In this document: positions 4,194-60,497 of the stretch, one piece after another
Layout of the letters: each line of letters opens with the position of its first letter
How positions within the stretch are numbered: the stretch's first letter is position 1
Assembly: GCA_017942025.1 (NCBI GenBank)
Contig: JAGAVH010000061.1
Span: forward strand, 1-60,734
Length of the DNA stretch: 60,734 nt
From: Ruminiclostridium sp.
GTDB taxonomy: Bacteria > Bacillota > Clostridia > Oscillospirales > Ruminococcaceae
Reading direction: 5' to 3'
Program-made: the position numbers and the translations under genes
Notes under the pieces: generated by a model
Seen by the model: only the letters and a program-made list of their open reading frames with translations
The model's database searches: none
What the model was told of the DNA's origin: nothing

Positions 4194-6122
4194 TTATCTT
4201 ATTGCACTGCCGTTGGGCGTATCCTTGTCTAAGAATACAACCTGTACCTTATCACCGCAGTCGCAGGCAAGGAGCATACCGTTGCTGTCCTCGCCGCAGA
4301 GCTTTGCAGGAGAGAGGTTTGCAACAAATATTACCTTCTTGCCGATAAGCTCTTCGGGAGTGTAGTACTGGGCGATGCCGCTTACTATCTGTCTGCCGCC
4401 TCTGCCGTCGTCTACCTGTAACTTCAGAAGCTTCTTGGCCTTCTTTATCTTTTCGCAGGCTGTGATTTCACCACTTCTGAGCTTAACCTTTGCAAAATCC
4501 TCAATAGAGATTATTCCTGCCTTATCAAGGTCTTCATCTTCCTTATATTCCTTTTTGGGAGTGAGCATTTCGTTAAGGGCTTCGATTTCCTTATCCATAT
4601 CAATTCTGGGGAAGAGAACTCCGCCCTTTGAAACGGTAACTGTCTGAGAAAGTACATTTATATTGCCTGCCGCTTCGTAGGTAACATCGTCAGCGGTTGC
4701 GCCTATCTGCTTCCATACTTCGGGCATTGTTGTGGGCATAAAGGGATAGAGAAGGGCAGAAGTTATACGGATAACTTCAAGCAGGTTGTAAAGAACTGCA
4801 CAGAGTCTTGACTTGTTTGCTTCGTCCTTTGCCAGTACCCAGGGAGCAGTTTCGTCGATGTACTTATTTGCACGGGAAACTACCTTGAATATCTCTTCGA
4901 GAGCCTTTGAAAGCTGGGCGTTGTCCACCGCTTCTTCAACCTTTGCTCTGAGTTCCTTTGCCATACCGATAAGCTCGTCGTCGAATTCGCCGCTTGTCTT
5001 ATCGCTGATAAGTGTGCCGCCGAAATACTTATCCACCATGGCAACCGTACGGGAAACAAGATTGCCGAAGTCGTTGGCAAGGTCGGTGTTTATTCTGCTT
5101 ATCATTATTTCATTTGAGAAGTTGCAGTCAGAGCCGTAGGGCATATCACGGAGTATCTGATAGCGTACAGAGTCAACGCCGTAACGCTCTGCTAAAACAA
5201 AGGGGTCGATAACGTTGCCCAGAGATTTACTCATCTTCTGACCGTTGAAGTTGATCCAGCCGTGGCCGTAAAGGCGCTTGGGCAGGGGGAGTTCAAGCAT
5301 CATAAGTATGATAGGCCATACAATGGAGTGGAAGCGCACGATTTCCTTTGCAGTCATATGCATATCTGCAGGCCAGTATTTGTCATAATCATTATATGCA
5401 CTGTTCTTGTAGCCGAGAGCACTGATATAGTTTGTAAGAGCATCAACCCATACATAAACTACGTGACCTTCGTCAAAGTCAACCGGTACGCCCCATGTAA
5501 AGGTTGTACGGGATACGCATAAATCCTCAAGACCTGCGTTGATGAAGTTGTTTACCATCTCGTTTACACGGGTAGCAGGCTGAAGGTAATCCGTTTCTGT
5601 AAGGAACTTACGGATTTTGTCCTCGAAAAGGGAGAGCTTTAAGAAATAAGCTTCTTCATCAGCCTCGATAACGTCTCTTCCGCAGTCGGGGCACTTACCG
5701 TCTACAAGCTGAGATTCTGTCCAGAAGCTTTCGCAGGGTGTGCAGTATTTACCTGTGTACTTGCCCTTGTAGATGTAGCCTCTGTCATAAAGCTCGCGGA
5801 ATACCTTCTGTACTGTTTCAATATGATAATCGTCAGTGGTTCTGATATATCTGTCATAGCTTACGTTCATAGTTTTCCATAAGCGCTTGAAATTGTCAAC
5901 GATGGGGTCAACATATTCTTTAGGTGTAACGCCCTGCTCCTTGGCTTTGAGCTCAATCTTCTGACCGTGCTCGTCTGTACCGGTGAGGAACATTACGTCG
6001 TAGCCCTGCATTCTCTTGAAGCGGGCGATAGTGTCACAGGCTACAGTTGTGTAGCAGTGACCTATGTGGGGATTACCCGAGGGGTAATATATAGGGGTTG
6101 TTATATAGAATTTCTTGTCCAT
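4194..6122 (-). CDS. metG: Methionyl-tRNA synthetase with C-terminal tRNA-binding domain
   Basis: Charges tRNA-Met. The 642-residue class I enzyme shows the HIGH motif (PHIGH, near 18-22), a Cys4 zinc knuckle (Cys127, 130, 144, 147), KMSKS (296-300), the anticodon-binding helical domain, and from about 535 an OB-fold tRNA-binding domain of the Trbp111/EMAP type. Start ATG follows AAGGAG. It lies upstream of metF in the same direction, grouping methionine synthesis with its use, but has its own promoter at 6307-6335. The same OB-fold is fused to LysRS at 12549-14519. Confidence 0.97.
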   Translation of the reverse strand: MDKKFYITTPIYYPSGNPHIGHCYTTVACDTIARFKRMQGYDVMFLTGTDEHGQKIELKAKEQGVTPKEYVDPIVDNFKRLWKTMNVSYDRYIRTTDDYHIETVQKVFRELYDRGYIYKGKYTGKYCTPCESFWTESQLVDGKCPDCGRDVIEADEEAYFLKLSLFEDKIRKFLTETDYLQPATRVNEMVNNFINAGLEDLCVSRTTFTWGVPVDFDEGHVVYVWVDALTNYISALGYKNSAYNDYDKYWPADMHMTAKEIVRFHSIVWPIILMMLELPLPKRLYGHGWINFNGQKMSKSLGNVIDPFVLAERYGVDSVRYQILRDMPYGSDCNFSNEIMISRINTDLANDFGNLVSRTVAMVDKYFGGTLISDKTSGEFDDELIGMAKELRAKVEEAVDNAQLSKALEEIFKVVSRANKYIDETAPWVLAKDEANKSRLCAVLYNLLEVIRITSALLYPFMPTTMPEVWKQIGATADDVTYEAAGNINVLSQTVTVSKGGVLFPRIDMDKEIEALNEMLTPKKEYKEDEDLDKAGIISIEDFAKVKLRSGEITACEKIKKAKKLLKLQVDDGRGGRQIVSGIAQYYTPEELIGKKVIFVANLSPAKLCGEDSNGMLLACDCGDKVQVVFLDKDTPNGSAIR

Positions 6123-37814: not shown

Positions 37815-38414
37815 ATGAAGAGAAAAATTGCGATGCTACTGGCGGCAGTTATGACTGCAAGTATGTTATCAGGATGCGTTGTAAAAGCGAAAGATGGTTA
37901 TTTACCTGGTGCAGGATATGACACATCCAACAAAAAGCCTTCGGTTTTAGTACCCGAGGTACCTGCTACAACTACAACAAAAAAGCCTGTAGTTGTAGTA
38001 CCTGAAACAACAACTACAAAAAAGCCTGTAGTTGTAGTGCCTGAAACAACTACTACAAAAAAGCCTGTAGCAACAGCGACACCAAAGCCTGCGGCACCCA
38101 CAGCAAGCCAGATTTCAAGTCAGCTTACAGAAGCGCTTTCAGGTGAAAAGCTTACTAACGCCAAGGAATATCTTATCGGTTGCGGAATCCGTGAAGCCAA
38201 GATTTCTATGTTCACAGACTCAGGAGAAACTCTTGACGGAGTGCTCAATGCACCTTCTACATACGATCTTACCAAGGTTGTATATAGCGCCAACGGCTCT
38301 ATTGCCTTATACGGTAAGAAAGTAAGATTCGTGCCTGACGCATTCAAGGACTTTATCAAGGACGCGGCAAGAGAAGCGGCTCTTCAGAAGGTTGTAGATT
38401 CTATTCTTAACTGA
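37815..38414 (+). CDS. Lipoprotein with a Thr/Lys/Val/Pro repeat linker
   Basis: A 199-residue lipoprotein with lipobox MLSGC (Cys21), a linker (about 45-97) made of tandem 13-residue units PVVVVPETTTTKK, and a C-terminal domain (about 98-199) that holds STYDLTKVVYSANGS. The linker probably spans the wall. The C-terminal domain was not recognised. AGAGAGGAAAAG lies before the ATG. Its linker composition resembles that of the convergent GH26 enzyme. Confidence 0.82.
   Translation: MKRKIAMLLAAVMTASMLSGCVVKAKDGYLPGAGYDTSNKKPSVLVPEVPATTTTKKPVVVVPETTTTKKPVVVVPETTTTKKPVATATPKPAAPTASQISSQLTEALSGEKLTNAKEYLIGCGIREAKISMFTDSGETLDGVLNAPSTYDLTKVVYSANGSIALYGKKVRFVPDAFKDFIKDAAREAALQKVVDSILN
37980..38070 (+). 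repeat. 39-bp in-frame tandem repeat
   Basis: Two full units and one partial unit of a 39-base repeat encoding PVVVVPETTTTKK inside the lipoprotein gene. Units differ at a few third positions. Such repeats can change in number by slippage, altering linker length. Confidence 0.8.
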
Positions 38415-38442
38415 TAATTACTTTTTAACTGAATAAGTTCAA

Positions 38443-38473
38443 TAAAAAAGCGTTGCACATAAGTGCAACGCTT
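38443..38473 (-). terminator. Left terminator palindrome
   Basis: AGCGTTGCAC/GTGCAACGCT stem. The A-tract lies on its left (AAAAAA, 38444-38449), so the U-tract is read on the minus strand. The 25 bases 38449-38473 recur exactly at 38784-38808. Confidence 0.8.
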
Positions 38474-38694
38474 CAGTGTGTAGACAAAGTTATTTGTCTA
38501 CACACTGTCAGACGATGAAAAACGCACGCAGACGAGGAAACTGACGCCGTCGGCGTACGAACGGCAAGGATGCCGTAAAGCGAACACACAAGGTGCGTCA
38601 GGACGACGCACGACAAGGTGTTCGCATAAGGTACAGTTGAGGGGCGGTTGACGAAGTAAGCAAAAATGCTTTAGAGAGCCGTTTAAGGCTCTCT
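38446..38694 (-). ncRNA. Candidate structured RNA within the 310-bp element
   Basis: On the minus strand a promoter (38701-38730) is followed by the hairpin AGAGAGCC/GGCTCTCT, further hairpins, and a terminator with six U at 38449-38444, giving a predicted RNA of about 250 bases. Three stems show compensatory changes when compared with copies 1 and 3. I do not recognise the RNA family. It could instead be only the folded body of a mobile element. Confidence 0.45.
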
Positions 38695-38783
38695 AAATCT
38701 TTTATATCATTATTTCGTGTATATTCACAAATTCGTTACAAGTTCCCGGCATTTTTGCGGTGCGTGAGTTTGTCTTCAGTCTG
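38474..38783. mobile_element. 310-bp MITE-like hairpin element, copy 2 (complete)
   Basis: Lies between two identical 25-bp terminator palindromes. The ends are imperfect inverted repeats: left CAGTGTGTAGACAAAG, right (reverse complement) CAGACTGAAGACAAAC, 12 of 16 identical including AGACAAA. The interior holds a series of hairpins: 38475-38506, 38593-38611 and 38671-38694. No ORF of meaningful length is present, so it would be non-autonomous. Copies 1 and 3 lie at the window ends. This 400-base region (38415-38815) otherwise holds only terminators. Confidence 0.7.
38701..38730 (-). promoter_or_regulatory. Promoter inside the 310-bp element
   Basis: Minus strand TTGTGA (38725-38730), 18-base spacer, extended -10 TGATATAAA (TATAAA at 38701-38706). 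It points into the hairpin series. Confidence 0.55.
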
Positions 38784-38811
38784 AGCGTTGCACATAAGTG
38801 CAACGCTTTTT
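38784..38811 (+). terminator. Right terminator palindrome
   Basis: Exact copy of the 25-base palindrome at 38449-38473, here followed by T-rich sequence (CTTTTTAC) on the plus strand. It lies just beyond the stop of the minus-strand GH26 gene. Confidence 0.8.
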
Positions 38812-38815
38812 ACTA

Positions 38816-40552
38816 TCAGTATTTTGGCAACTCGTCAAGGGTTATTACATACTTGCTGTCGTATGCCTTTTTGATTATACTTTTTTCTGTGAACTTTTCG
38901 CTGTATTCTGTTCCGTAGGAGGCAAACTCGCCGCCCCAGGTGCAGAACCACGCCCACATAGTGTTTGTAGCAACCGCCTGGTCAATATCGAAAATACAGC
39001 CGTTTTCGGTAAGTGCGACAATTTTGTTGCTGTCGCTGTACTGTGCCGCTTCTTTGAATTTTGCTGTCTGAGGAGCATACACACGTTCGCCGGGATAGAT
39101 ATCCTCGCCCACTATATCAACGTATTCATCACCGGGGTACCAGCTGTCGTTCTGACCGTTGAATACCCAGATAAGATTGTTACAGCCGTACTTGTATGTA
39201 AGCTCTTCGTAAAGATATATCCAGAGCTTTTTATATGCGTCGGCACCCTTTGCGCCCCACCAGAACCAGCCGCCTGACGCTTCGTGAAGAGGTCGCCATA
39301 ATACGGGTACGTCCGCGTCGGCAAGGCGTTTGAGCTGTTTTGCTATTTCCTCTATATCACGGTCGATAAGCTCTTTGCCTGTCTTGTCGGTACCGTTCAT
39401 AACCTTAGCTATATCAAAGGTGCTGTTACGTGAGTAGAAGCCGCCCCACCAGCGAGGATTTCCGTTGTCGCTGTCGTTTCCGTCCTTCAGGTATTCCGTA
39501 GGCGCGTTCCAGTGCCAGCAGAAGGTAACTATTCCGCCCTTGTTGCTGAATTCTATCGCTTTGTCAACTGCGTGGGATCTTGCTCCCAGAGCGGTTCTTG
39601 ACGGTGTGTAATCCATAAAATCCAGTCCCAGGATAGCAGGTGTTTTTCCTGTTACCTTACGTATAGCGGTGATTTCCTTGCCGTTATATCCGTCGTCGCA
39701 TACCTGACCTGAAAGAACATATTTACCGTAGCTGTCACAAAGATAGCTGAAAAGCGATCTGGTGCGTGGAGTTGAATTCTTGTTTATGAGAGTATCGGAA
39801 ACCTTGTAGATTTCATCGCTTATGCCCTCTGCCTTGATTACCTTGATGCAGTCCAGCTTTATCCAGCCCCAGGAAGGGGTGATCTTTATTTTGTGACTGC
39901 CCTTGGTAAGACTTATACTGGGTACGGTGTTTTCACTAAGCACATCCTTTTCGCTTTTGAAAACGCCGATGGGAGTGCCGTCGATAATCAGGTTGTTTTC
40001 CTTGTATGAGCCGATGCCTGAGGAAACAAAGGTTATATCATACATTCCGTCAGCCGAAACAGTAATATCAAAGGTCAGATAATCTGTTTTTCCGCCGAAG
40101 TTCTCAACTGCCTTGCCGCCTGAAAAATCCTTGCCGTCGCATATCCTGAGAGTGCCTGAAAGCTTGGCGTCTTCTGCCTCGTAAACAGTCTGTGATAAAG
40201 GTGCTTCTTCCTTTGGCACAGTTGTATCAGCGGTGGTTGATGTGGCTGATGTAGTGGTTTCGACAGGTACGGTGCTTCCTGTAGTTGTAGTAACCTCCTG
40301 CTTTGCAGTGGTGGTAGCGGATGTGGTTGTAGTATTTTCTGTGGTTGTCGTGGTTGCAGTGGTTTCTTCCGATGCCTCAGGGACGGAGGATATTTCTTCA
40401 TCAGGGGACCCGGGTTCGGGTGCCTTGATGGTTGTGCCTGCGGTTGTAGTTGTGGTATCAGCCGCAGATGATGCCGAAGGCTCGCCGCCGTTACATCCCG
40501 AAAGGGATATCAGAAGCGAAACCGTCAGAAATACAGATAAAAACTTTCTCAT
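38816..40552 (-). CDS. Lipid-anchored GH26 beta-mannanase with CBM35
   Basis: A 578-residue exported enzyme: lipobox SLSGC (Cys20), a Thr-rich linker (about 30-115), a CBM35-type carbohydrate-binding module (about 121-241, starting YEAEDAKLSG), and a GH26 barrel (about 258-570) with acid/base Glu424 (WRPLHEASGGWFWWG) and nucleophile Glu516 (ALTENG). GH26 enzymes mostly cleave beta-1,4-mannan; a few have other beta-glucan activities. No dockerin is present, so it is held on the cell membrane rather than in a cellulosome. Confidence 0.93.
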   Translation of the reverse strand: MRKFLSVFLTVSLLISLSGCNGGEPSASSAADTTTTTAGTTIKAPEPGSPDEEISSVPEASEETTATTTTTENTTTTSATTTAKQEVTTTTGSTVPVETTTSATSTTADTTVPKEEAPLSQTVYEAEDAKLSGTLRICDGKDFSGGKAVENFGGKTDYLTFDITVSADGMYDITFVSSGIGSYKENNLIIDGTPIGVFKSEKDVLSENTVPSISLTKGSHKIKITPSWGWIKLDCIKVIKAEGISDEIYKVSDTLINKNSTPRTRSLFSYLCDSYGKYVLSGQVCDDGYNGKEITAIRKVTGKTPAILGLDFMDYTPSRTALGARSHAVDKAIEFSNKGGIVTFCWHWNAPTEYLKDGNDSDNGNPRWWGGFYSRNSTFDIAKVMNGTDKTGKELIDRDIEEIAKQLKRLADADVPVLWRPLHEASGGWFWWGAKGADAYKKLWIYLYEELTYKYGCNNLIWVFNGQNDSWYPGDEYVDIVGEDIYPGERVYAPQTAKFKEAAQYSDSNKIVALTENGCIFDIDQAVATNTMWAWFCTWGGEFASYGTEYSEKFTEKSIIKKAYDSKYVITLDELPKY

Positions 40553-60463: not shown

Positions 60464-60497
60464 AATAAAAAGCCGTACCTACGTAACAGGTACGGCT
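60464..60497. terminator. Terminator palindrome at the right window end
   Basis: AGCCGTACCT/AGGTACGGCT stem (60471-60480 and 60488-60497). As at 173-200 and 38449-38473, the A-tract precedes it and the repeat element (CAGCG) follows it directly. The 180 bases 60283-60463 before it hold nothing I can assign. Confidence 0.75.

Follow-up and report, generated by a model that had tools for sequence, protein, structure and literature searches.

Between a lipoprotein-like gene and a convergent GH26 gene in the window (the whole stretch of 60,734 nucleotides that was analysed), the 25-bp palindrome AGCGTTGCACATAAGTGCAACGCTT occurs twice, with an insert of 310 bases lying between the two identical copies. 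The locus raises the question of what the insert is and how an entire terminator stem came to stand on both sides of it. The original prediction was that a non-autonomous mobile element had entered a bidirectional terminator and duplicated the whole stem as its target site. Both palindromes fold, with stems of 11 (left) and 10 (right) pairs, a loop of ATAA and z scores of −6.85 and −6.23 relative to shuffled sequences. Read as inverted repeats, the 16-nucleotide ends of the insert match at 12 of 16 positions by an eye count. The A-tract stands solely to the left of the left palindrome, and the T-tract, which runs through 38811, solely to the right of the right one. A terminator scan of 38380–38860 gave five terminator-like sites compared with a shuffle mean of 0.4, and called the right palindrome on the plus strand and the left palindrome on the minus strand. 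The predicted anatomy, namely identical palindromes, imperfect inverted ends and an A-tract and T-tract divided between the two copies, was confirmed by these measurements. The coordinates are collected in Table 1. Tandem KKPVVVVPETTTT-like repeats were also observed inside the lipoprotein-like open reading frame, at 37968–38070.

Table 1. Coordinates of the insertion locus, its neighbours and the partial element copies in the window.
Feature	Position	Strand	Basis
Non-autonomous MITE, 310 bp	38474..38783	+	Boundaries as in 34 full genome copies; no ORF of at least 60 aa inside
Duplicated target hairpin, left copy	38449..38473	.	Identical to 38784–38808; folds alone
Duplicated target hairpin, right copy	38784..38808	.	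Identity with left copy; folding
A-tract, the T-tract of the GH26-gene terminator	38444..38448	-	Sequence and terminator scan
T-tract, outer part, of the lipoprotein-gene terminator behind the right copy	38809..38811	+	Sequence and terminator scan
Left terminal inverted repeat CAGTGTGTAGACAAAG	38474..38489	+	16/16 with pattern CAGYGTGTAGACAAAG, which also marks the end of the L144 IS1182 element
Right terminal inverted repeat, reading inward CAGACTGAAGACAAAC	38768..38783	-	14/16 with right end of the L144 IS1182 element, CAGATTGCAGACAAAC
Left-end hairpin (terminal repeat and its inverted copy)	38474..38507	+	15-bp perfect stem; fold z = −7.82; covariation
Central hairpin, T-rich tail on each strand	38670..38697	.	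Terminator-like in both directions (scan); covariation
Left neighbour, ORF of 199 aa with lipoprotein-like start	37815..38414	+	No Pfam match
Right convergent neighbour, GH26 glycoside hydrolase with CBM35	38816..40552	-	ORF list, domain search
Partial element copy cut by contig start	1..172	-	Its hairpin next, at 173–200
Partial element copy cut by contig end	60498..60734	+	Its hairpin just before, at 60471–60497

The source genome assembly (2.53 Mb, 80 contigs, 83% complete) gave 97 match rows with the window region, and 34 full copies of 239–337 bp could be defined in it, with three main size classes of about 240, 310 and 335 bp. These were compared with 22 copies from seven congeneric genomes, sampled via best matches and selected ends rather than exhaustively, and with one copy from a human faecal contig (L162). 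The resulting set of 57 was reduced from 62 end pairs by removing duplicates of one place; copies cut by contig ends were excluded, as were unpaired or degenerate ends (e.g. L032, L033, L072, L073, L076, L094, L096, L102, L106 and L107). Further units sharing these boundaries occur in the genome, each lying between a different hairpin pair, which places the arrangement in the window beyond chance.

A hairpin with a score of at least 6 abutted the element on both sides in all 57 copies, compared with 77 of 784 control positions taken from the same flanks 45–75 bases further out. The sequence of the hairpin varied from site to site. The same hairpin, defined by an identity of 0.75 or more, was found left and right in 51 of the 57 copies and was identical to the base in 21. 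The duplications were 16–37 bp long, and their length followed that of the left hairpin (r = 0.98); the first base was A in 40/51 and the last base was T in 35/51. The T fraction over the eight nucleotides after the right copy was 0.58 against a background of 0.31, and A made up 0.61 of the positions preceding the left copy against 0.32. This enrichment outside the duplicated hairpins is the pattern of bidirectional terminators. A mobile element that doubles a whole terminator stem is therefore what the copies describe, as had been predicted, and full copies were found between duplicated hairpins at 51 places, with six exceptions that have unlike hairpins on the two sides. In one respect the prediction was overturned: a target duplication comprising an entire terminator had been called unusual, and it is instead the rule for this element and for related IS1182 transposons, as shown for a subgroup of the IS1182 family.

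The six exceptions carried two different hairpins, one per side (L026, L029, L030, L056, L058 and L066). For two of them the partner hairpins were located beside other copies: the left hairpin of L003/L058 is the right hairpin of L024, the right hairpin of L003/L058 is close to the left hairpin of L010, and the right hairpin of L026 is close to the left hairpin of L007. The mismatches at L058 and L026 are therefore attributed to recombination between copies or to misassembly, and those at the other four are unexplained. As a separate observation, the base adjoining the left end of the element differed between the hairpin copies in 6 of 44 equal-length pairs (from 51 duplicated pairs), compared with 24 of 932 stem positions; the donor site may be the origin of this base.

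Joined flanks were built for 14 sites, and seven of these were searched in two genomes, G040 and G066. A single hairpin with both flanks aligned was found in four comparisons at three sites (L005 and L012 in G066, L020 in both G040 and G066), as had been predicted for places that lack the element. At the L019 site in G066 there was one hairpin with alignment of the right flank only, the L022 site in G066 was also occupied, by an element of 241 bp instead of 335 bp, and at the L025 site in G040 there was other DNA. The empty counterpart of the window insertion was not found among relatives, as their GH26 loci (seven examined) have other neighbours. At one site shared by two genomes (L082 in G000, contig C21; L109 in G040, contig C50) the elements were 241 and 336 bp long and lay in opposite orientation, flanked in both genomes by the same two mutually different hairpins, which indicates that the element occupying a site can be swapped or turned around. 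At three of the four sites compared, strains differed by an inversion of the target-hairpin loop, with unchanged stems (L005, L019 and L020 against G066; compared loci L276, L277, L279 and L283), and the loop was uninverted at L012 against G066 and at L020 in G040. Among hairpin pairs that are not identical, 2 of 30 (L014 and L035) matched better when inverted; at L035 the loop is inverted between its own two hairpin copies, which amounts to hairpin flipping.

The ends of the element led to a transposase family. A scan of viral contigs gave 39 stretches (28 + 11), of which five were an element within a duplicated hairpin (L137, L140, L144, L158 and L160, with the flanks of L158 and L160 being alike), and the remainder were taken as chance 16-mers rather than inspected singly. 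L144 is 1535 bp long and has MITE-like ends, the duplicated hairpin GAACGGGACAACCTGTCCCGTTT and an IS1182 transposase. L137 (5537–8615) is a nested arrangement spanning 3079 bp: an IS1182 element has entered the end hairpin of a second one, and that hairpin is duplicated. Against NF033551 (cut-off 270 bits) the L144 transposase scored 478.1 bits and those of L137 475.1 and 484.7 bits, and the transposases of both loci also matched PF13751, PF05598 and PF01609.

A survey of IS1182 relatives covered the best 80 of 265, in named genomes, using a query chosen for its ends; 14 of the 80 loci had flanks under 150 bases and were dropped, leaving 66. Both ends and a direct repeat were found in 45/66 loci, the repeat being 12–42 bp long and correlated with hairpin length (r = 0.91). 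The repeat scored as a hairpin in 44 of the 45, and the last one (L174), whose 10-bp stem encloses a loop of 10 nt, exceeds the limit of the scorer. These duplications began with A in 43/45 and ended with T in 40/45. Hairpin duplication was present further out at two more loci (L187 and L213), the hairpins differed between the sides at another two (L177 and L209), and 17/66 had no recognisable end pair. Given these last two groups, and a query picked for its ends, the survey establishes the rule for a subgroup of the family. The hosts surveyed include Bacillus, Romboutsia, Streptococcus, Serratia, Vibrio and Lachnospiraceae. The same behaviour in many relatives suggests that DNA shape governs how this group of transposons selects and measures a target.

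The shared ends, the duplicated hairpins and the transposase-bearing IS1182 elements together assign the window insert. By its ends and target behaviour, as read from sequence, it is an IS1182-type MITE, and an IS1182 transposase is its presumed mover. The source genome assembly, which is 83% complete and may be missing repeats, gave no IS1182 transposase match by PF13751 or NF033551. Across the genus NF033551 matched 24 of 71 genomes, five of them over the cut-off; there was no match in G000, in six other carriers (G022, G025, G026, G028, G040 and G044) or in G066, and weak or partial matches only in G014 and G019. Unpaired element ends occur in G000, G028, G039, G040, G063 and G066, and the four of these loci with listed ORFs contained no transposase. 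The IS1182 partner may have been lost, may be unassembled or may act from other genomes. A MITE may outlive its partner, so the absent transposase is not defining and membership is decided by ends and target only.

Our preferred reading, to which we assign a probability of about 0.88, is that the MITE depends for its movement on an IS1182-family DDE transposase acting in trans, which recognises a hairpin, mostly an intrinsic terminator, and joins the element to the edges of that hairpin, after which repair doubles the hairpin. The transposase would pick a DNA hairpin that would be extruded as a cruciform, or folded as a single strand, at the time of attack. Each 3′ end of the element would then be joined at one 5′ foot of the hairpin, and gap repair of the single-stranded arms would leave a whole hairpin on both sides. 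Comparison of the copies shows that the element inserts with its ends at the two hairpin edges and that doubling of the hairpin is independent of its length. The inversion of target loops between strains is as expected if such hairpins extrude in cells.

Several other explanations were considered. Tandem terminators could have pre-existed, with the element inserted between two hairpins, and the 6/57 copies with two different hairpins fit this, as does the site common to G000 and G040, where both genomes show the same differences between the two hairpins. The single hairpin in the empty site, seen in all four comparisons at the three sites, led to its rejection, and the 21/57 hairpin pairs identical to the base also speak against it; it is very improbable. 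The insert could also be a group IIC intron, a REP/BIME element or a conserved RNA gene favouring terminators. Such elements do occur at terminators or palindromes. However, no Rfam match was found within the window, on which ground a conserved RNA gene or intron was rejected, and the target duplication, the DDE-type ends and the lack of a reverse transcriptase or any other ORF of at least 60 aa inside the insert reduce the chance of this explanation to almost nothing.

The remaining two explanations retain the family and alter the reaction. A replacement of the stem-loop, as in IS1272, would remove the target hairpin; the family and the kind of target are shared (PMC4923244, PMC5678879), and a genome of the same genus (G043) contains an IS1182 copy from a different subgroup (L114/L247) that has the half-stems GTAACG and CGTTAC outside its ends with no direct repeat found, like IS1272. 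The MITE copies, however, retain two full hairpins, and replacement was rejected for the window element as its hairpins are doubled and not lost, which makes this explanation extremely unlikely. A less easily dismissed alternative is that the same transposase and MITE are involved and that the palindrome is read as double-stranded half-sites, not as an extruded hairpin. The closing A.T pair is favoured (A first in 43/45 and T last in 40/45 of the IS1182 duplications), which indicates that some sequence is read at the hairpin edge. Against this, the stagger tracks the hairpin over 16–37 bp in the MITE and 12–42 bp in the IS elements, and half-sites at such varied spacing and helical phase would be hard for one rigid dimer to bind; moreover, the loop inversions at 3/4 sites are expected from hairpin extrusion in the cell. 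Recognition of double-stranded half-sites is therefore considered unlikely, although it keeps an appreciable share of the probability.

Several systems already described come close to this element. IS1182-family direct repeats range from 0 to 60 bp in ISfinder, which suggests that its curators have met long repeats. The family shares with the window element the ends, the palindromic target and, in 45/66 loci, the duplicated hairpin, and differs in that the window element has no transposase gene. Palindromic targets for some IS1182 members were noted by Siguier et al. (2015), as cited in PMC5678879 and PMC4923244. IS1272 and TnSha1, IS1182-family elements of Staphylococcus, insert at hairpins that vary in sequence and include several terminators (PMC4923244), and IS1272 deletes the target hairpin and leaves no duplication (PMC5678879, PMC4923244). 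Hairpin targets are thus shared with these elements, while the window MITE keeps and doubles the hairpin that IS1272 removes. The route proposed here corresponds to pathway b of the model in PMC5678879, drawn beside pathway a (hairpin removal) for IS1272; the legend of Fig. 13 offers hairpin duplication as a possibility and gives no case. Hairpin targeting by IS1182 is therefore already published, and whole-hairpin duplication was met, in the portions of these papers covered, only as a model (PMC5678879).

Bacterial MITEs, as treated in the portions of the review PMC10969869 covered here, are likewise short, free of ORFs, bounded by terminal inverted repeats, multi-copy, intergenic and structured. 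The term IS1182 has no occurrence in the text of that review, and the same portions name neither an IS1182 MITE nor a whole-hairpin duplication. The BrickBuilt MITE of Porphyromonas gingivalis resembles the window MITE in being intergenic and near rho-independent terminators, but in the case described it lies outside the terminator, and its duplications are short and of differing length (PMC4596501). Searches of an open-licence collection of papers gave neither whole-hairpin duplication as a rule nor a MITE family that relies on it.

The anatomy of the locus suggests how transcription of the two neighbours would be affected. Insertion would split the bidirectional terminator such that each convergent gene now has its hairpin and T-tract at the far side, and the central hairpin of the MITE would add a further terminator in both directions. 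With the far hairpin and its T-tract in place, and a central hairpin besides, terminators would be tolerable landing sites. The original prediction that termination is left intact for both genes held for the far hairpin, which keeps its T-tract, and failed for the near hairpin, which has lost it; each transcript would therefore have to cross the element, gaining about 335 nt, before it reached the far copy, unless stopped by the MITE's own hairpin.

Two hairpins inside the MITE had gone unremarked in the original prediction, the 15-bp hairpin of the left end and the central hairpin, which the terminator scan called terminator-like on both strands. When 28 of the 57 copies were aligned, these two hairpins proved to covary, with 16/28 pairs changed on both sides. 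Paired cells amounted to 96.8%, compared with 83.5% in shuffles and 33–46% when the pairing was slid. None of 500 shuffles was as high on any of five measures, a comparison in which relatedness alone can exceed shuffles. The covariation indicates that selection, or else the mode in which the element is copied, maintains the two hairpins.

The whole element was matched in 9 of 60 genomes of the genus, and each exact end pattern in 5 of 71, with G066 as an additional carrier among them. In a search for the wider family, with two candidates scored per genome, 3 of 297 genomes matched, two belonging to the same genus; G234, of another genus, contains a shorter relative of the element in a duplicated hairpin (L296). 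A plasmid collection searched for the element gave no match, and a phage collection gave one matching record, L162, which is an element copy in a duplicated hairpin. At L102 (G066, contig C14, about 4895–4927) a lone 33-bp left-end palindrome was observed with no remaining element and two different hairpins around it.

In most known DDE transposons the length of the duplication is fixed or nearly so and is set by the enzyme. A duplication length that follows the target hairpin over 16–42 bp provides a clean and testable case for a transposase reading DNA secondary structure, and the duplicated hairpins would form a natural record of hairpins extruding in living cells. As a hairpin-doubling counterpart to the hairpin-deleting IS1272 in one family, the element allows the choice between duplication and deletion to be compared across relatives. 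The use of terminators as safe sites would explain how a repeat can spread through a compact genome without damage. Extended more widely, structure reading would hold for a large branch of the IS1182 transposases, with hosts ranging from Bacillus and Streptococcus to Serratia and Vibrio. These enzymes would cut at both feet of any extruded hairpin, giving a duplication of the hairpin's length, and their MITEs would find safe sites in intrinsic terminators and, once inserted, insulate convergent genes through a conserved bidirectional terminator of their own; we regard this extension as evenly poised.

The contig that forms the window starts and stops inside copies of one element, which indicates that the assembly broke there. 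Matching hairpins can serve as labels for joining contigs broken inside such a repeat, as at both ends of this one. The hairpin at 173–200 matches, with its loop inverted, the hairpin beside copy L006 on contig C67, and this match could label the two contigs as neighbours.
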